The notes under the pieces were generated by a model that was given only the letters and a program-made list of their open reading frames with translations, ran no database searches and was not told the DNA's origin. From the IMG/VR virus record IMGVR_UViG_3300025769_000497, positions 1 to 31,698 of that record: a stretch of 31,698 bases of DNA; one strand, 5' to 3'. Position numbers and translations under genes: made by a program. Every line of letters begins with the position of its first letter. Position 1 is the stretch's first letter. Below, one piece after another: positions 15,559 through 23,511 of the stretch. Origin of the DNA: a virus.

Positions 15559-15969
15559 ATGAACAAAGAAAAACTAATTGAAGAACTTAAACGTGACGAA
15601 GGTGTAGAACTACGACCTTACAAATGCTCGGCAGGATTTTTAACTCTGGGTGTAGGTAGAAATATAGAAGAGCGTGGTATTACTATGGATGAGTCTGATT
15701 ATCTTCTTGCCAACGATATAACAATTTGTGAAGAAGAAGCTGCTAGAGTTTTTAAATGGTTTGCAGATCTAACAGACGTTAGACAAAGAGCTATTATTAA
15801 CATGATATTTAATCTAGGTTTAACAAAATTATTAAACTTTAAAAACTTCCTAGCTGCTATGGCAGCAGAAGATTATGAAACTGCAGGTAAGGAAATGCTC
15901 GATAGTCGTTGGGCTAGACAGGTTGGTAACAGAGCAGACAGATTGGAGCAGATGATTGTTAACGGATGA
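15559..15969 (+). CDS. Endolysin, T4-type lysozyme (GH24)
   Basis: This 136-residue protein hydrolyses peptidoglycan at lysis. The active-site pattern is clear: Glu14 in RDEGVELRPY, Cys23, and Thr29 in FLTLGVGRN. That matches the E-x8-(D/C)-x5-T triad of the family (T4 lysozyme Glu11, Asp20, Thr26), with Cys replacing Asp, a variant known in other phage endolysins. The C-terminal part NMIFNLG and SRWARQVGNRADR is also typical. There is no signal peptide, so release through a holin is expected; a 3-TM holin lies two genes downstream. Length is close to the catalytic core of the family. Confidence 0.93.
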   Translation: MNKEKLIEELKRDEGVELRPYKCSAGFLTLGVGRNIEERGITMDESDYLLANDITICEEEAARVFKWFADLTDVRQRAIINMIFNLGLTKLLNFKNFLAAMAAEDYETAGKEMLDSRWARQVGNRADRLEQMIVNG

Positions 15970-17211: not shown

Positions 17212-17483
17212 TGCCAATGGGAAAAGGAACTTATGGTTCAAAGGTCGGCAGACCTAAAAAGAAAAAGATGATGGGTGGTGGCATGGCTAAGAAAAAGCGC
17301 ATGACATATAAAAAAGGTGGAGGTGTTAAACACTATAAGAAAGATGGTACTGAGTATAAAGGTTCTAGTCACAAGATGCCTAATGGAGAACTACATACAA
17401 ATAAAACACACACCAAAACAAGCGTTAAACTTTTTCACTTTAAAGATCTTTCTAAGAAAGCTAAAGTAAAGGCTAAAAAGTAA
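17211..17483 (+). CDS. Small Lys/Gly-rich protein, KKGGGV motif (90 aa)
   Basis: The N-terminus PMGKGTYGSKVGRPKKKK is a pattern common in small proteins of marine phages. It continues with MMGGGMAKKKRM, KKGGGVKHYKKDGTEYKG and a His/Thr-rich middle, and ends in a KAKVKAKK tail. The protein is expected to be strongly cationic and largely unstructured. It is coupled by TAATG junctions on both sides. The function is not known; the shared KGG element links it with the large virion proteins at 3138 and 9997. Confidence 0.7.
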   Translation: MPMGKGTYGSKVGRPKKKKMMGGGMAKKKRMTYKKGGGVKHYKKDGTEYKGSSHKMPNGELHTNKTHTKTSVKLFHFKDLSKKAKVKAKK

Positions 17484-17731
17484 TGGCACTCAAAAAGTCT
17501 CAGAGGTCTTTAAAGAAGTGGACAAAGCAGAAATGGAGAACTCCAAGTGGTAAGAAGTCTTCTGAAACTGGTGAAGTCTATGCTCCGTCTGCAAAAATTA
17601 AAAGGCTTAAGTCTACTCCTGCAGGTAGAAGAAAACTTGCAGCAGCTAACAAAAAGAAACGTGCTGCTACTGCTAAAGGTAAGCAACATGCTAAACATGG
17701 ATTACATAAAAAGAAAAGGAAGAAGAAATAA
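17483..17731 (+). CDS. Small lysine-rich protein, KWTKQKWRT family (82 aa)
   Basis: The protein contains KKWTKQKWRTPSGKKSSETG followed by VYAPSAKIKRLKSTPAG and a poly-basic end (KKKRKKK). The WTKQxWRT-xSGK-SSETGE signature is a recurring domain of unknown function in marine phages (I believe DUF5872, unverified). An alternative plus-frame ORF overlaps it but lacks the family pattern. TAATG junctions link it to both neighbours. It may bind nucleic acid; this is inferred from charge only. Confidence 0.75.
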   Translation: MALKKSQRSLKKWTKQKWRTPSGKKSSETGEVYAPSAKIKRLKSTPAGRRKLAAANKKKRAATAKGKQHAKHGLHKKKRKKK

Positions 17732-18021
17732 TGGCTAAGAAGAAAGACTCAAGGCTTGCAAGAGCAGGTGTTTCTGGTTTCAATAAACCTAAACGTACTC
17801 CAAGCCATCCTAAAAAATCTCACATTGTTGTAGCTAAAGAAGGTGATAAAATAAAGACTATTCGTTTCGGACAGAAAGGAGCTAAGACTGCAGGTAAACC
17901 TAAAGCAGGTGAGTCTAGACGCATGAAGATGAAACGTAAATCTTTCAAGGCTAGACATGGTAAAAATATTAGAAAAGGTAAAATGTCTGCAGCTTATTGG
18001 GCTGACAAAGTTAAATGGTAA
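17731..18021 (+). CDS. Conserved basic marine-phage protein (96 aa)
   Basis: The sequence includes RLARAGVSGFNKPKRTPSHP, KSHIVVAKEGDKIKTIRFGQ, a Lys/Arg-rich stretch KSFKARHGKNIRKGKMSAAY and the end WADKVKW. I recall this as a highly conserved short protein of many marine podoviruses and myoviruses, with no known function. It has a small beta-type core (HIVVAKEGDKIKTIRFG) flanked by basic segments, more like a folded nucleic-acid-binding domain than its three upstream neighbours. It closes the TAATG-linked series. Confidence 0.78.
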   Translation: MAKKKDSRLARAGVSGFNKPKRTPSHPKKSHIVVAKEGDKIKTIRFGQKGAKTAGKPKAGESRRMKMKRKSFKARHGKNIRKGKMSAAYWADKVKW

Positions 18022-18026
18022 CGTAA

Positions 18027-18377
18027 ATGGTAGAAGCAATAGACTTCATAAACCAAGTAGGATTCCCGATTGCTAGTGCGCTAGGATTGGGTTTCTTCAT
18101 TTGGAAGCTTATAAATAAAATCATTGATGGCATGGAAAAGAAGATAGATGTTGTTGATGAAAAGGTAGATGCTAGTTTAAATGCTATGGAAGAACGGCTT
18201 AGTACTAAACTAGATTCTCAATATGGCATCATAGTAGCTTTAATTGATAGAGTAAGATCTCTTGATAATCAAACAATACGACAAGATGTACTTCTTAAAA
18301 CTTTGTTAGGTATTCCTAACTTAATTGAAATAGATAAAGTGAGTAAAGCAGACCGTGAAGATCAAAGAAAAGATTGA
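18027..18377 (+). CDS. Membrane-anchored coiled-coil protein (116 aa), holin-like topology
   Basis: One hydrophobic helix at residues about 8-28 (INQVGFPIASALGLGFFIWK) precedes a long charged coiled coil (KKIDVVDEKVDASLNAMEER) and a short C-terminal segment. The GFPIA-x-LGLGFFIW pattern recalls single-TM phage proteins annotated as holin-like or of unknown function. It starts 5 bases after the basic-protein series and overlaps the csgF-like gene by 23 bases, so it heads the curli-like operon. It could anchor that system in the inner membrane or take part in lysis. The sequence does not decide this. Confidence 0.6.
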   Translation: MVEAIDFINQVGFPIASALGLGFFIWKLINKIIDGMEKKIDVVDEKVDASLNAMEERLSTKLDSQYGIIVALIDRVRSLDNQTIRQDVLLKTLLGIPNLIEIDKVSKADREDQRKD

Positions 18378-18858
18378 AAATATATCAATAAACAAACTTA
18401 TTAATTTATTATTTGTGTGTAATTTTATTTTTTTGTTTATGGTAATTTTTTTTAGTGACGCATTAAAAGCTGACGAAATACTTTACAAGTTTAAAAGTCC
18501 TAGCTTCTCTGGAATAAATACATCAAGTCATTATCTTACTATAGAAAACCAAGAAGCTACAAGAGTTAGAGATATTAAAGAAGAGATAGAAGCTTATAAA
18601 GATGAACTAGCCAGAGAAGCAGACAACACTACACTTGCAAGGTTTATAAGAAACTTAGAAAGCAGAATCTACGCACAGTTGTCACGACAAATGGTAGAGC
18701 AACTGTTCGGAGAAACACCACAAACATCAGGTACACTTGAGCTAGAGGGCAACACTATTGAATACAAAGTTGAAAATGAACTTATCACACTTACTATCAC
18801 AGATGAAGAAGGTAGCGTTACCAGTATTTCTGTGCCTATCGGCAGCTTTACTTTCTAG
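18355..18858 (+). CDS. csgF: CsgF-like curli assembly protein
   Basis: In bacteria CsgF sits in the mouth of the CsgG pore and helps curlin nucleation at the cell surface. Here, a GTG start gives 167 residues with a signal peptide (hydrophobic core 15-33, likely cleavage after ALKA39). The mature N-terminus DEILYKFKSPSFSGINTSS closely follows the conserved CsgF segment that inserts into the CsgG barrel (aromatic-x-F-x-(N/S)-P-x-F-x-G). The middle helix (RFIRNLESRIYAQLSRQMVE) and the beta-rich C-terminus with LTITDEEGSVTSISVP also match the family. It overlaps the csgG-like gene by 56 bases. Strong family call; its role in a phage is unknown. Confidence 0.88.
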   Translation: MKIKEKIENISINKLINLLFVCNFIFLFMVIFFSDALKADEILYKFKSPSFSGINTSSHYLTIENQEATRVRDIKEEIEAYKDELAREADNTTLARFIRNLESRIYAQLSRQMVEQLFGETPQTSGTLELEGNTIEYKVENELITLTITDEEGSVTSISVPIGSFTF

Positions 18859-19624
18859 TTGTGCGCCAAGATATAGTTCTTTATTACAGGAAGGTGGTCT
18901 TCCTTATATTGTTATTGAGAAAGCTTCTGTATTAGATTTACAATCAGAAGAACTAAAGAACATACCTGCTGCAAAAAGAAAACCAGTAATAGCTATTTAT
19001 CCTAATAGCTTCAAAGATCAAACAGGACAAAGAAAAAGCAACGGACAGTTTGCTTTGTTTAGTACTGCAATAACACAAGCACCAGAAGCTTTTCTTATTA
19101 GAGCTTTGAAACATGCAGCAGATGGTGAGTTCTTTCAAGTGGTAGAACGTGTGGGTTTAGACTCATTAACCAAAGAAAGGCAACTTATACGCAGTACAAG
19201 GGAATCTTTTGAAGAGGAGAGTGCTGTGAAACCTCTTTTACTAGCAGGACTCATGGTACAAGGAGCTGTCCTATCCATAGATAGGAACATAAGAAGCGGT
19301 GGAATGGGTGCTAGGTACTTAGGCATAGGATCTAGTAAAGAATACAGAGAAGACTTAATAACTATATCACTTAGATTAGTTTCAGTATCTACAGGAGAAG
19401 TTCTTATAGAAGTATTAGTCAACAAGAGTGTTATATCAGTAGGACTATCACAAGATCTATTTCGTTTTATCTCAAGTGGAACAGAACTTGTTGAAATCGA
19501 GGGAGGAGCATCAGAGAATGAGTCAAGTTCTTTAGCTCTTCAACAAGCAATAGAAGAAGGAGTACTGTCTATAATTAAGACAGGTATAATTAGGAGGTAT
19601 TGGGAATATGAAAAAGTTAATTAG
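18803..19624 (+). CDS. csgG: CsgG-like outer-membrane curli secretion lipoprotein
   Basis: CsgG forms a nonameric outer-membrane pore that exports curlin subunits. The ATG at 18803 starts a lipoprotein signal peptide with lipobox LLSSC (lipidated Cys20), which fixes the start; earlier starts would bury it. Conserved elements include KPVIAIYPNSFKDQTGQ (61-77), FSTAITQAPEAFLIRALK (86-103), VVERVGLDSLTKERQLIR, SGGMGARYLGIG (165-176), SLRLVSVSTGEVL and the C-terminal ALQQAIEEGV with a late YWEYEK. The 273-residue length matches bacterial CsgG (about 277 with signal). By alignment to E. coli CsgG, constriction residues Tyr51 and Asn55 become Gly81 and Leu85, while Phe56 is kept as Phe86. The pore may therefore pass a different substrate. 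Strong call. Confidence 0.93.
   Translation: MKKVALPVFLCLSAALLSSCAPRYSSLLQEGGLPYIVIEKASVLDLQSEELKNIPAAKRKPVIAIYPNSFKDQTGQRKSNGQFALFSTAITQAPEAFLIRALKHAADGEFFQVVERVGLDSLTKERQLIRSTRESFEEESAVKPLLLAGLMVQGAVLSIDRNIRSGGMGARYLGIGSSKEYREDLITISLRLVSVSTGEVLIEVLVNKSVISVGLSQDLFRFISSGTELVEIEGGASENESSSLALQQAIEEGVLSIIKTGIIRRYWEYEKVN
19592..19598 (+). promoter_or_regulatory. Near-perfect Shine-Dalgarno before the curlin-like gene
   Basis: AGGAGGT lies 9 bases before the ATG at 19608, inside the end of csgG. It is the strongest ribosome-binding site of the cassette; csgF and csgG show none as good. This predicts that the secreted subunit is made in excess over the pore, as fits a substrate. Confidence 0.8.
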
Positions 19625-20354
19625 TATACTAGATTGTACTTTATTTAGTGTAGCTGTAATAGCAGGTAGCGTTTATTTATTTAATGAAGTTAGAGCTGAT
19701 GATAATGAAATATATGTAGATCAAGTAGGTGCTACAGCAAATATAGATCTTGAGCAGCTTGGAAGTGGTAACATAATCGGAGGTTTACTATCGACACACG
19801 GATCTATGACTCCGTTTGATCTTGATGGTGCAACCATGACGCTAGATGTAAATCAAATAGGTAACAACAACAAGATGCTTGGTGATATAAATAGTGATAC
19901 ATTTACTGGTGTCTTTGATTTTGATGGTGATACTAATAGTTTCACTATTCAAGTCGATCCTACAAATACTTATTCGGCAGACAACTCAAATGTAAACGTA
20001 GATGTTGACGGAAGTACAAATACATTTACTCTTGATCTAGCTACAAACAGTTTAGCAAGTGGCGCAGATATTGACACTATAGTACAAGGAGATTCAAATA
20101 CTGTGAACATTGATTTAGATGTAGACTCTGCTACAAACTACATAGATCTTGATGGTGACAGTAACACAGTTAATTATGATGGAGATGGGTATGCGTCTGG
20201 GTATTTCAAGTTGGAACACGATGGTAACTCAAGGTCGTTTGCTATTGATCAACAGTCTACTTTGGATAATGACTGGTTGCGCATTGTGTCTGACGGAAAC
20301 AACGGAACAGTATGCGTTAATCAGGACGATCAAGGCACAGCAGTTGGATGTTGA
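19608..20354 (+). CDS. Secreted curlin-like (CsgA/CsgB-type) acidic repeat protein
   Basis: The 248-residue protein has a signal peptide (residues about 1-30, cleavage near EVRA before DDNEIY). It continues with repeat strands of curlin style: IYVDQVGATANIDLEQLGSG, LDVNQIGNNN, VDVDGSTNTFTLDL, IVQGDSNTVNIDL and DGDSNTVNYDGDG. The Gln-x-Gly-x-x-Asn pattern is classic in the first two units; later units shift to Asp-Gly, making the protein very acidic. It ends with VCVNQDDQGTAVGC, where two Cys could form a disulphide. In bacteria such subunits leave through CsgG and form surface amyloid fibres. It overlaps csgG by 17 bases. It may be the cassette's export substrate. It could instead be a soluble beta-solenoid. 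Confidence 0.75.
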   Translation: MKKLISILDCTLFSVAVIAGSVYLFNEVRADDNEIYVDQVGATANIDLEQLGSGNIIGGLLSTHGSMTPFDLDGATMTLDVNQIGNNNKMLGDINSDTFTGVFDFDGDTNSFTIQVDPTNTYSADNSNVNVDVDGSTNTFTLDLATNSLASGADIDTIVQGDSNTVNIDLDVDSATNYIDLDGDSNTVNYDGDGYASGYFKLEHDGNSRSFAIDQQSTLDNDWLRIVSDGNNGTVCVNQDDQGTAVGC

Positions 20355-21372
20355 TATAGGAAGTATTACAGAACTAAACGGAAACACCAGAGTAGTAAGA
20401 GACAAACCATACGAAAGTGCTATAGATTTTTCTCTTAATGCTATGGATAAACTAGAAACTGCTCAAGGCAGAATGGGTGTTACGTTTAGAGATGAAACTA
20501 CAATACGTTTGACAGAACACAGCAATGTTATTATTGATGAGTTTGTGTTCGATCCTAATCCAAGTAAGTCTAGCATGGCTCTTAACTTTGTTAAGGGTAC
20601 TGGTAGATTTATATCCAGTAAAAAGAAACGTATACCTAACGACAACATTACTGTAAGGACACACGCTGCTACCATTGGAATAAGAGGTACAGACTTTACA
20701 ATAACTGTAAAAGAAACTGGTGAAGCTTTGGTAATACTTTTACCTGATGAGTTTGGTAATGCTAGTGGAGAGATAACTGTAAACACAGCGTTAGGACAAG
20801 TAATACTTAACAAACCTTATGAAGCTACTACAGTCTATAACTTTGAAACTGCACCAACTCCTTCGGTTATATTAGATCTAAGCATAGACATGATAGACAA
20901 CATGCTTATTGTTAATCCACCAGAAAGAGAAGAGATAGAATCAGATGAAGGTAACGCAGTAGCAGATAACATACTCGATGTAGACTTGTTAGAGTTTAAC
21001 GATCTAGATGAAGACCAACTACAGGAAAACGAATTAGAATATACAGAGCTAGATATAGACTATCTGGCAGGTAATTTTCTTGAAGATCTGCTAGATATAA
21101 TTCAAGATGTTGATGAACTTAGTAAAGCTGAGAAGTCTTTATCGGCTGATGGAGTTAAAGGAACAGCAGTCGGTTATGATAGTGACACACAGATAAGCAC
21201 CTTTATAACTGATACTCACCTAAAGTTCTTGCGTCAGATAGAAGATACATTAGAAATGAAAGTAGATAAAGCAGGCTCGTACAATATTCGTATTGAGCAA
21301 GAAGGTAAAGTAAATCAGATCACTACCAACGGAGGTAGTAGTTCTAATATTACAATAAAACAAGGTAGTTAA
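20344..21372 (+). CDS. FecR-domain protein with C-terminal curlin-like repeats
   Basis: The frame is open far upstream, but the conserved part begins at DVDIGSITELNGNTRVVRDK. The TTG at 20344 has an AAGG site 8 bases upstream and gives 342 residues; an ATG at 20269 would give 367. Residues about 1-130 form a FecR-type domain (RMGVTFRDETTIRLTEHSNV, later THAATIGIRGTDFTITV). A long acidic middle follows (DLLEFNDLDEDQLQEN). The C-terminus ends in curlin-like strands (NIRIEQEGKVNQITTNGG, NITIKQGS). No clear signal peptide is seen with either start, which is odd for a partner of exported curlin. In marine bacteria FecR-type proteins of this kind occur near surface-protein genes. It may be a chaperone, nucleator or anchor. 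Confidence 0.7.
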   Translation: MDVDIGSITELNGNTRVVRDKPYESAIDFSLNAMDKLETAQGRMGVTFRDETTIRLTEHSNVIIDEFVFDPNPSKSSMALNFVKGTGRFISSKKKRIPNDNITVRTHAATIGIRGTDFTITVKETGEALVILLPDEFGNASGEITVNTALGQVILNKPYEATTVYNFETAPTPSVILDLSIDMIDNMLIVNPPEREEIESDEGNAVADNILDVDLLEFNDLDEDQLQENELEYTELDIDYLAGNFLEDLLDIIQDVDELSKAEKSLSADGVKGTAVGYDSDTQISTFITDTHLKFLRQIEDTLEMKVDKAGSYNIRIEQEGKVNQITTNGGSSSNITIKQGS

Positions 21373-21594: not shown

Positions 21595-23511
21595 TTAAAT
21601 TATCTCACAAGTTCCTGCGCTACACGCAAGTTCTTTTGTATTCTCCGTATTATCTTCTTTTTCATATTCGGTAATCTTAGACCAATCTACCTTGTCGGTT
21701 GTCTTCTTTAACCATTTCCTGTACTCATTGTAAGTTATCTCTTGATAAGGAGCTTGCTTATATGAGTGATCTGAGTATGGTAAGAAGGATATACCTGATA
21801 TATCATCAAAGTTTTTATGTACCCAAGCACCTACTTCTAACCACTCGTTTTCTTTTACTGATATTGTAACAGAAGGTTTATGCTCACACCATTGATCTTG
21901 ATACTCTTTCCATATCTTCAAGTGTTCTATTGCTGATAAATCATTCCTAGTCAATGCACCTACAGGACTTTTCATTGGAAAGTAAAAGACTAAAGTATGC
22001 TCTGGCTTAGTAAGATCATCTTCATTGTATACTCCTGCATCAACCATTAGTTTAGCTAGAGGATCTTTCTTGTCTGCCCTTACTGTTCTAAGATAATATC
22101 TACTATGTCTAGTGTGAATACCAGAAGCACTATCCACTAACTGACTTACAGTTCCACTAGGTTTAACGCAAGTTATAGCTGCTGACTGTGGTATACCTAG
22201 TTTCTTAGCCCATACTTTATTTACATCAATAGATATTTGTTTTAATTTATCTAAATCTATTTTGCCATTTAGCATATCTTTATTATCCATAATACCTGTT
22301 AAAGACACACCAAGTAAAGACTCTTCTTGTGTGTTTTGTTTCCACTTACTTGTCAAGTATCTAAAGTTTGTAAGCGTAGCTTGGAATGTACCAAGAATTG
22401 TAGCAGCTTTTACTTTAGCTATTAAAGTATCTTCATTATCGTCAGGTCTAACAACAACCTCAGTTAGATTACAGAACTGTTTGTTGCGTAATATGATTTC
22501 ACTACAAGGATTACATCCAAAGTCTTTATACTCCTCTCGTCTACCATTCTTAGCAGCTTGTTTCTCGGCAGCTTGTCTATTAAAGATACCACGCTCACCA
22601 CTTTTAGATTCATATAGTGACAACCATTCACGCATAAACGCACCTGTTTCTGCAGCATCTGTATAGGCTACAGAGTTATTAGACAAAGCTCTTTGCTGAT
22701 TGTCTTCCCACCAAGCACCTGACTTAGCATTGCGCATACGATTGTCTGAGAGGTTGCTGAGAGAGATTAAAGCACTCCTCCTTACTCCTCCTACTACTAC
22801 AACTTCTGCGACCTTACACATCAAATCATGACAGTCTATGGACACAAGTTTACGCTGTCCTTTTGACATGGCATCACGGAATATGTTAATAGTAAACTCA
22901 AATAACTCTTCAAGAGGAGCAGGACCACTAGCACGACCACCAAATGTTTTAAGTCTAGCACCATAAGGTCTGATGTTAGACACATCCCAAGTGGGAATTT
23001 GCCCTGCATAAAGTAAAGATAATAATTCTTTGTAGGATTTTGCCCATCCTATTTTAGAATCAGCTACTTTAATAACTGTATCAGTTGGAAACAAATCTTC
23101 TGGAAGATCTGGTAGCTCGTTTATATACTGACGCTCTACGCTAAAGCCAACACCTGTACCACACATGAGTATGTAAAGTGTTTCATCAAATGCTCTAGGA
23201 CTATCAACAGCTACATAGCTACAGTTAAATCCTGCTACATTATCTTTTTGTAAAGCTAGTCCTGCTGACATCAATGCTCTCATGCTTGGCATAATGTTTA
23301 AATACAATACAGCTTTCTCTAAGTACTTTCTAGTTTCATCAAACTGTGACTTACTTAGGTTGTGGTTTTCTTTAAGATGTGTTTCAAAGAAATCAAAGTA
23401 TCGAGATACTGTTTCTGTCCACGTTTCTCTTCTTTGTTTATCTTCGTTCCATCTAGCGTACCTGCTTAGATGTATAAACTGTTGATAGTTTGTAGGTAAT
23501 TCTGTACTCAT
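21595..23511 (-). CDS. nrdJ: Class II (adenosylcobalamin-dependent) ribonucleotide reductase, monomeric type
   Basis: The enzyme reduces ribonucleotides to deoxyribonucleotides using vitamin B12 coenzyme, supplying DNA synthesis during infection. All key residues of the Lactobacillus leichmannii-type enzyme are seen: Cys97 (FNCSYV) and Cys347 (QFCNLTE) as the redox pair, and Asn334, Cys336 and Glu338 (GCNPCSEI) as the active site. The spacing of 11 between the thiyl Cys and the second redox Cys matches. A C-terminal CSAGTC pair (Cys630, Cys635) serves re-reduction. Other family segments are CGTGVGFSVER and CVKPSGTVSQL. The 638 residues are somewhat shorter than the roughly 740 of the bacterial enzyme, as is common in phages. 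AAGGA precedes the ATG, and an ATGA overlap links it to the upstream membrane-protein gene. No small NrdB subunit is needed. Confidence 0.96.
   Translation of the reverse strand: MSTELPTNYQQFIHLSRYARWNEDKQRRETWTETVSRYFDFFETHLKENHNLSKSQFDETRKYLEKAVLYLNIMPSMRALMSAGLALQKDNVAGFNCSYVAVDSPRAFDETLYILMCGTGVGFSVERQYINELPDLPEDLFPTDTVIKVADSKIGWAKSYKELLSLLYAGQIPTWDVSNIRPYGARLKTFGGRASGPAPLEELFEFTINIFRDAMSKGQRKLVSIDCHDLMCKVAEVVVVGGVRRSALISLSNLSDNRMRNAKSGAWWEDNQQRALSNNSVAYTDAAETGAFMREWLSLYESKSGERGIFNRQAAEKQAAKNGRREEYKDFGCNPCSEIILRNKQFCNLTEVVVRPDDNEDTLIAKVKAATILGTFQATLTNFRYLTSKWKQNTQEESLLGVSLTGIMDNKDMLNGKIDLDKLKQISIDVNKVWAKKLGIPQSAAITCVKPSGTVSQLVDSASGIHTRHSRYYLRTVRADKKDPLAKLMVDAGVYNEDDLTKPEHTLVFYFPMKSPVGALTRNDLSAIEHLKIWKEYQDQWCEHKPSVTISVKENEWLEVGAWVHKNFDDISGISFLPYSDHSYKQAPYQEITYNEYRKWLKKTTDKVDWSKITEYEKEDNTENTKELACSAGTCEII

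Follow-up and report, generated by a model that had tools for sequence, protein, structure and literature searches.

A phage-borne curli-type secretion cassette and the possible role of its FecR-domain protein

Why would a phage carry a curli secretion pore together with a candidate substrate and a FecR-domain protein? The question is raised by IMG/VR virus record IMGVR_UViG_3300025769_000497, of which positions 1 to 31,698, a stretch of 31,698 nucleotides, are referred to here as the window. Four genes at 18355-21372, csgF, csgG, a curlin-like gene and fecR, share one orientation, and each overlaps its neighbor (by 56 bp, 17 bp and ~134 bp or more; Table 1). The phage is marine, with SAR11 bacteria as its likely host. 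These bacteria are among the most abundant groups and are reported to lack curli genes. On balance, we lean slightly towards reading the cassette as a late phage type VIII secretion system that would display a beta-solenoid at the surface of the infected cell, with the FecR-domain protein as an exported structural partner and not an iron-sensing anti-sigma factor.

Table 1. Features of the cassette and of its flanks in the window
Feature	Positions	Strand	Description
Lysozyme gene	15559-15969		2 kb upstream of the cassette
Two small, very basic proteins	17483-18021	+	Lys/Arg-rich, 82 and 96 residues; the second is PHROG 7595; directly 5' of the cassette
Small membrane protein	18027..18377	+	One N-terminal transmembrane helix, long charged coiled-coil-like tail; cassette-specific
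CsgF-like curli assembly factor	18355..18858	+	GTG start, signal peptide, N-terminal FxxPxF motif
CsgG-like outer-membrane lipoprotein pore	18803..19624	+	Lipobox LLSSC; in-frame TTG at 18758 is a possible alternative start
Curlin-like exported subunit (predicted)	19608..20354	+	Signal peptide; mature part from ~19698; two C-terminal cysteines
Double-coded overlap	20221..20354	+	Curlin 3' end and FecR N-terminus in the +1 frame
FecR-domain protein	20221..21372	+	N-terminal signal-like stretch within the overlap, then the FecR beta domain, a disordered acidic linker, a helix and beta strands at the C-terminus
FecR C-terminal curlin-like repeat	21274..21369	+	GSYNIRIEQEGKVNQITTNGGSSSNITIKQGS, the protein end
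Ribonucleotide reductase	21595-23511	-	Adenosylcobalamin-dependent type

A conserved curli-type cassette and its predicted substrate

The initial annotation of this DNA had proposed a phage-borne curli-like cassette holding both a pore and a plausible substrate, and profile searches and structure prediction bore this out. Hidden Markov model searches against Pfam matched CsgG to PF03783 (E=1.8e-46), CsgF to PF10614 (E=4.6e-18, above the cut-off) and the FecR-domain protein to PF04773 (E=9.4e-12), and CsgG also matched the E. coli CsgG structures 3x2r and 6l7a at E=5.6e-39. The identity of the cassette and its pore as curli-type is established. A CsgG pore, CsgF and an exported repeat protein are shared with the csg operons of E. 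coli; in contrast to those operons, CsgC, CsgD and CsgE were not found near the cassette, the repeats are degenerate, and a FecR-domain protein and small transmembrane (TM) proteins occur instead.

Scanning IMG/VR for csgG left 80 loci, and a scan with a fecR profile contributed 80 more, some contigs being present in both sets. The cassette proved to be a conserved five-gene unit: one or two small membrane-protein genes, csgF, csgG, curlin and fecR follow each other in this order in 93 of the 94 viral loci with enough flank, and the cassette of the window was found again at 98-100% identity in contigs from other metagenomes. A misassembled bacterial region, considered as an origin of the block, was rejected on both grounds. 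Persistence of a near-invariant gene order across unrelated replication modules argues for a selected function. Moreover, strong purifying selection acts on each of the four genes, with ratios of nonsynonymous to synonymous substitution rates (dN/dS) of ~0.03-0.21 in comparisons unsaturated at synonymous sites (~0.06-0.13 for csgF and ~0.08-0.21 for csgG).

Some cassette contigs (L091-L096, L263 and L264) have been binned in metagenome-assembled genomes labelled Pelagibacter, Flavobacteriaceae and Rhodobacteraceae. All of them have a phage-like G+C of 33-37%. L091-L096 are probably viral given this composition and their phage gene set, and the binned contigs as a group are probably viral contigs inside bins.

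The AlphaFold2 model of the mature curlin-like protein is a beta-solenoid composed entirely of strands, with a predicted local distance difference test score (pLDDT) of 82 and a predicted template modelling score of 0.82. Its Gln-x-Gly-x-x-Asn repeats, as initially described, held up in part: the strict QxGxxN form occurs in only 2 copies (shuffle P=0.004), whereas a degenerate pattern picked after inspection, [QDEH]x(0-1)G[NDS][NSTG][NR], is found 8 times where shuffling predicts 0.18 (0/20,000 shuffles). In the proposed check against the Pfam curlin repeat (PF07012), the window protein gave no match at threshold, and 5 of its 29 relatives matched weakly (best 0.02). A profile built from the phage curlins did retrieve curlin genes adjoining csgG in GC-rich bacterial genomes, in a small database for which E-values are indicative, and the curlin-like gene lies 3' of csgG in 93/94 loci. 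A sequence search of the PDB with the curlin and FecR profiles returned no matches, and a Foldseek search with the curlin-like model gave nothing stronger than weak beta-solenoid matches.

These data bear on whether the product would polymerize at all. A soluble or cell-bound, non-polymeric solenoid, serving as a binding protein or decoy, would fit the closed monomeric model, its failure to match the CsgA fibril structure with confidence (8enq, E=2.8), the subthreshold Pfam score and the two C-terminal cysteines. We nonetheless consider this improbable: the gene adjoins csgG and csgF, its profile homology leads to curlins of bacterial csg operons, and the FecR partner carries the same terminal strand motif.

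The FecR-domain protein and the small upstream membrane proteins

PF04773 was matched by 61/61 members of the FecR family (E=8.7e-12 for the window protein in this comparison), with no second domain at a usable E-value. The AlphaFold2 model of the window protein (pLDDT 72) comprises the FecR domain, a disordered linker with 20 acidic residues and 1 basic residue among 59, a helix and, at the C-terminus, a domain built of strands. The mature protein lacks a TM segment (maximum 19-residue hydropathy 1.25) and has no sigma-binding or cytoplasmic anti-sigma domain. As the initial annotation had noted, the protein ends in curlin-like strands, and this proved to be a phage trait: a terminal Phi-x-Phi-x-Q strand is present in 117/119 distinct phage FecR open reading frames versus 0/77 bacterial FecR relatives, and a C-terminal curlin-like motif in 115/119 versus 2/77. 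Residue Q316 is invariant in 61 aligned sequences.

The N-terminus appears to be encoded within the 3' end of the curlin gene. A start at 20149 is uncertain; within this lineage the strongest candidate is ATG 20221, the nearest signal-like start in the window (MVTQGRLLLINSLLWIMTGC). Across 54 curlin genes, stops in the +1 frame drop to 0.00-0.07 per 15 codons over the final 60 codons, where synonymous shuffles predict 0.40-1.23; further upstream in the same genes they occur at the synonymous expectation, without depletion. The podoviral overlap reads as more hydrophobic than the synonymous expectation in 65% of loci, which are related and thus not independent, and the FecR homologues of phages HTVC008M and Melnitz start with clear signal peptides. 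The poorly conserved FecR start codon prompted us to consider a curlin-FecR fusion produced by +1 ribosomal frameshifting. This was disfavored and an independent upstream FecR start is more likely, because the curlin stop and last codons vary and the open +1 frame reaches far upstream of the stop.

Wittmers 2022 (PMC9599517) proposed that FecR and the small upstream proteins are regulators, an iron-responsive FecR and a histidine kinase, tuning the phage curli operon. The Pfam domain agrees with such a role, as do the best Foldseek matches of the FecR part, which are FecR-family domains of anti-sigma type (4m0h and 6ovk, the latter from PupR). The fold is where the resemblance to FecR/PupR regulators stops: unlike them, the window protein has neither an N-terminal sigma-binding domain nor a TM helix, ends in curlin-like strands and would be exported, as the signal peptides of the myophage homologues suggest. 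Neither a FecI-type sigma factor nor a TonB receptor was found among the neighbors scanned. We regard the regulatory proposal as very improbable, because of the FecR-only domain content without a TM segment, the double-coded N-terminus, the domain layout and the curlin-like C-terminus. By its sequence, the protein looks unlike an anti-sigma factor or iron regulator and more like an exported fiber partner. Among NCBIfam families, relatives of the FecR domain include LipL45 and Lsa33 (matches below cut-off), surface proteins of Leptospira in which a FecR-like domain occurs in an annotated lipoprotein or surface adhesin, although the remainder differs from the window protein. We know of no curli operon context for either.

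The upstream proteins point in the same direction, since 0/13 contain a kinase domain: HisKA and HATPase_c were not found in any of the 13 with Pfam at E up to 1. They have 85-116 residues, with one hydrophobic segment at the N-terminal end and a tail that is charged, and among 50,697 cultured-phage records they are confined to those bearing csgG. Position and copy number (one or two 5' of csgF in 93/94 loci) agree with those of the published 'histidine kinase', which is therefore probably a small membrane/coiled-coil protein without a kinase domain. Together, the two reinterpretations set aside a published regulatory story and point to a structural one.

All 13 small proteins matched PHROG 18771, of unknown function, and 7 of them weakly matched the holin PHROG 4898 (best 1.1e-4). 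This weak similarity of cassette-specific proteins, the nearby lysozyme gene and the lack of clumping in Melnitz-infected cultures (PMC9004378) would suit a different use, in which CsgG and CsgF serve as an outer-membrane pore, open or gated, that times lysis or takes up nutrients, and no fiber is made (Buchholz 2022; Zaragoza-Solas 2020). A pure pore would need neither CsgF nor an exported beta-solenoid, however, and pore-only roles leave unexplained why the substrate-like and FecR proteins are retained alongside the pore in 93/94 loci, under selection as strong as its own. We judge this use unlikely.

A possible export mechanism

Under the surface-display reading that we favor, the cassette would be expressed late in infection, with CsgG as the pore in the outer membrane and CsgF as the chaperone at its exit. 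The curlin-like protein would reach the periplasm via the host Sec system, exit through CsgG and fold as a surface beta-solenoid, singly or polymerized. The FecR protein would be exported too, its folded FecR domain remaining at the pore or outer membrane. Its flexible linker and the curlin-like strands at its C-terminus would provide an anchor or seed for the fiber, as CsgB seeds CsgA. The infected cell would thereby gain a surface layer otherwise unavailable to it, most likely excluding competitors or keeping cells together. If true, a secretion system and surface fiber given by a phage would alter SAR11 encounters with other cells and phages.

The FecR and small TM genes seem to be parts of a phage version of the system, because the sampled bacterial curli operons lack both. 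In the bacterial sample, CsgF scored above cut-off in 3/289 genomes, and in the three alphaproteobacterial curli operons neither fecR nor small TM genes were found beside csgF and csgG. A more specific proposal, which we hold tentatively and think doubtful as a whole, is a type VIII variant of the phages' own. In it, the exported FecR protein would take over the functions of CsgB and CsgE, with its FecR domain at the pore and its tail seeding the fiber outside; double-coding of its export signal in the substrate gene would lock the partners together, and the small membrane proteins would be a further component.

Several observations weigh against surface display with an exported FecR partner. 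No clumping accompanied Melnitz infection, the sole published observation bearing on the proposed roles. FecR domains occur in signalling proteins, which also supply the best fold matches. The window FecR N-terminus is a weaker signal sequence (excess hydrophobicity P=0.098) with an unsettled start codon. The profile of the FecR C-terminus retrieved curlins at a best E of 0.88, no better than shuffled sequences did, so the tail resembles curlins by motif only. Finally, CsgE, a booster of secretion in E. coli, was not seen among the cassette and neighboring proteins scanned, in a window that is a fragment and of which not every open reading frame was scanned. Alphaproteobacterial curli operons are likewise reported to lack CsgE (PMC9599517).

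Phage lineage, known systems and neighboring genes

By sequence, the window backbone is HTVC103P-like. Its DNA polymerase is nearest to those of Pelagibacter phages HTVC115P, HTVC103P and HTVC104P at 49-50% identity (49.8% for HTVC115P), and one tail-module protein is likewise nearest to these three. A search of the 50,697 cultured-phage records found csgG absent from the three isolates; cassette genes were present only in HTVC008M and the Melnitz phages, and a further csgG match came from one unannotated 1.5-kb Salmonella record.

Used as a query against 24 cassette-bearing records, the window polymerase found 10 close relatives (58-100%) and 4 distant ones (26-27%, over a short stretch); 10/24 gave no match, a result that is uninformative for fragments. 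One of the four distant polymerases (G017) matches HTVC023P, HTVC027P and phage 023Pt_psg01 at the DNA level. The window shares 77% identity in CsgG and 82-91% in curlin with HTVC023P-type contigs, compared with 75-79% and 66-74% with many HTVC103P-like contigs. Because HTVC023P-type cassettes are as near to that of the window as many HTVC103P-like ones are, the cassette must have passed from one phage lineage to another. Its transfer between myoviruses and HTVC023P-type podoviruses has been reported (Wittmers 2022, PMC9599517). As far as we could find, there is no earlier report of the cassette in the HTVC103P-like lineage, which adds to its known carriers.

The cassette itself was previously known. 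Zaragoza-Solas 2020 (PMC7029224) described csgF and csgG in pelagimyophages and coined 'sibling capture', and Buchholz 2022 (PMC9004378) suggested that the pore acts like a pinholin. Contrary to the initial impression that the substrate and FecR partner were less described, both appear in Wittmers 2022 (PMC9599517), which covers CsgF, CsgG, CsgA/B, FecR, adenylate cyclase and the upstream 'histidine kinase' and shows metatranscriptome expression. In GenBank, the HTVC008M and Melnitz entries already use the product names 'curlin minor subunit CsgB', 'curlin associated repeat protein' and 'FecR domain protein'. What is new here is the HTVC103P-like backbone and the reinterpretation of FecR and of the 'histidine kinase'. 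Although the Melnitz paper (PMC9004378) states that csgA and csgB are missing, two genes of the cassette are labelled 'curlin associated repeat protein' in the phage's GenBank entry.

Like the window, the type VIII secretion module of HTVC023P-type pelagiphages and pelagimyophages (PMC9599517) has the order small gene(s), csgF, csgG, csgA/B and fecR, and CsgG is ~77% identical to that of the window in loci with an HTVC023P-type polymerase, whereas the polymerases of these contigs share just ~26-27% (short stretch) with its HTVC103P-like one. This module also has a second curlin gene and an adenylate cyclase gene 3' of fecR, both absent from the window. HTVC008M and Melnitz likewise have csgF, csgG, curlin and fecR, preceded by two small TM genes, but these phages are T4-like, their fecR adjoins or barely overlaps curlin and encodes a clear signal peptide, and a second curlin and adenylate cyclase again lie 3' of fecR.

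The ribonucleotide reductase is similar to the enzymes of cobaviruses and HMO-2011. In HTVC115P, the corresponding site is instead occupied by two genes, one each for the alpha and beta subunits, pointing to module exchange beside the cassette. The two small basic proteins recur in many HTVC103P-like contigs, and the match to cobavirus CRP-4 starts at that point. The DNA polymerase homologue in G012 and G013, the source contigs of loci L036 and L038 from different metagenomes, contains two in-frame TAG codons, possibly reflecting a split gene, a pseudogene or TAG reading.

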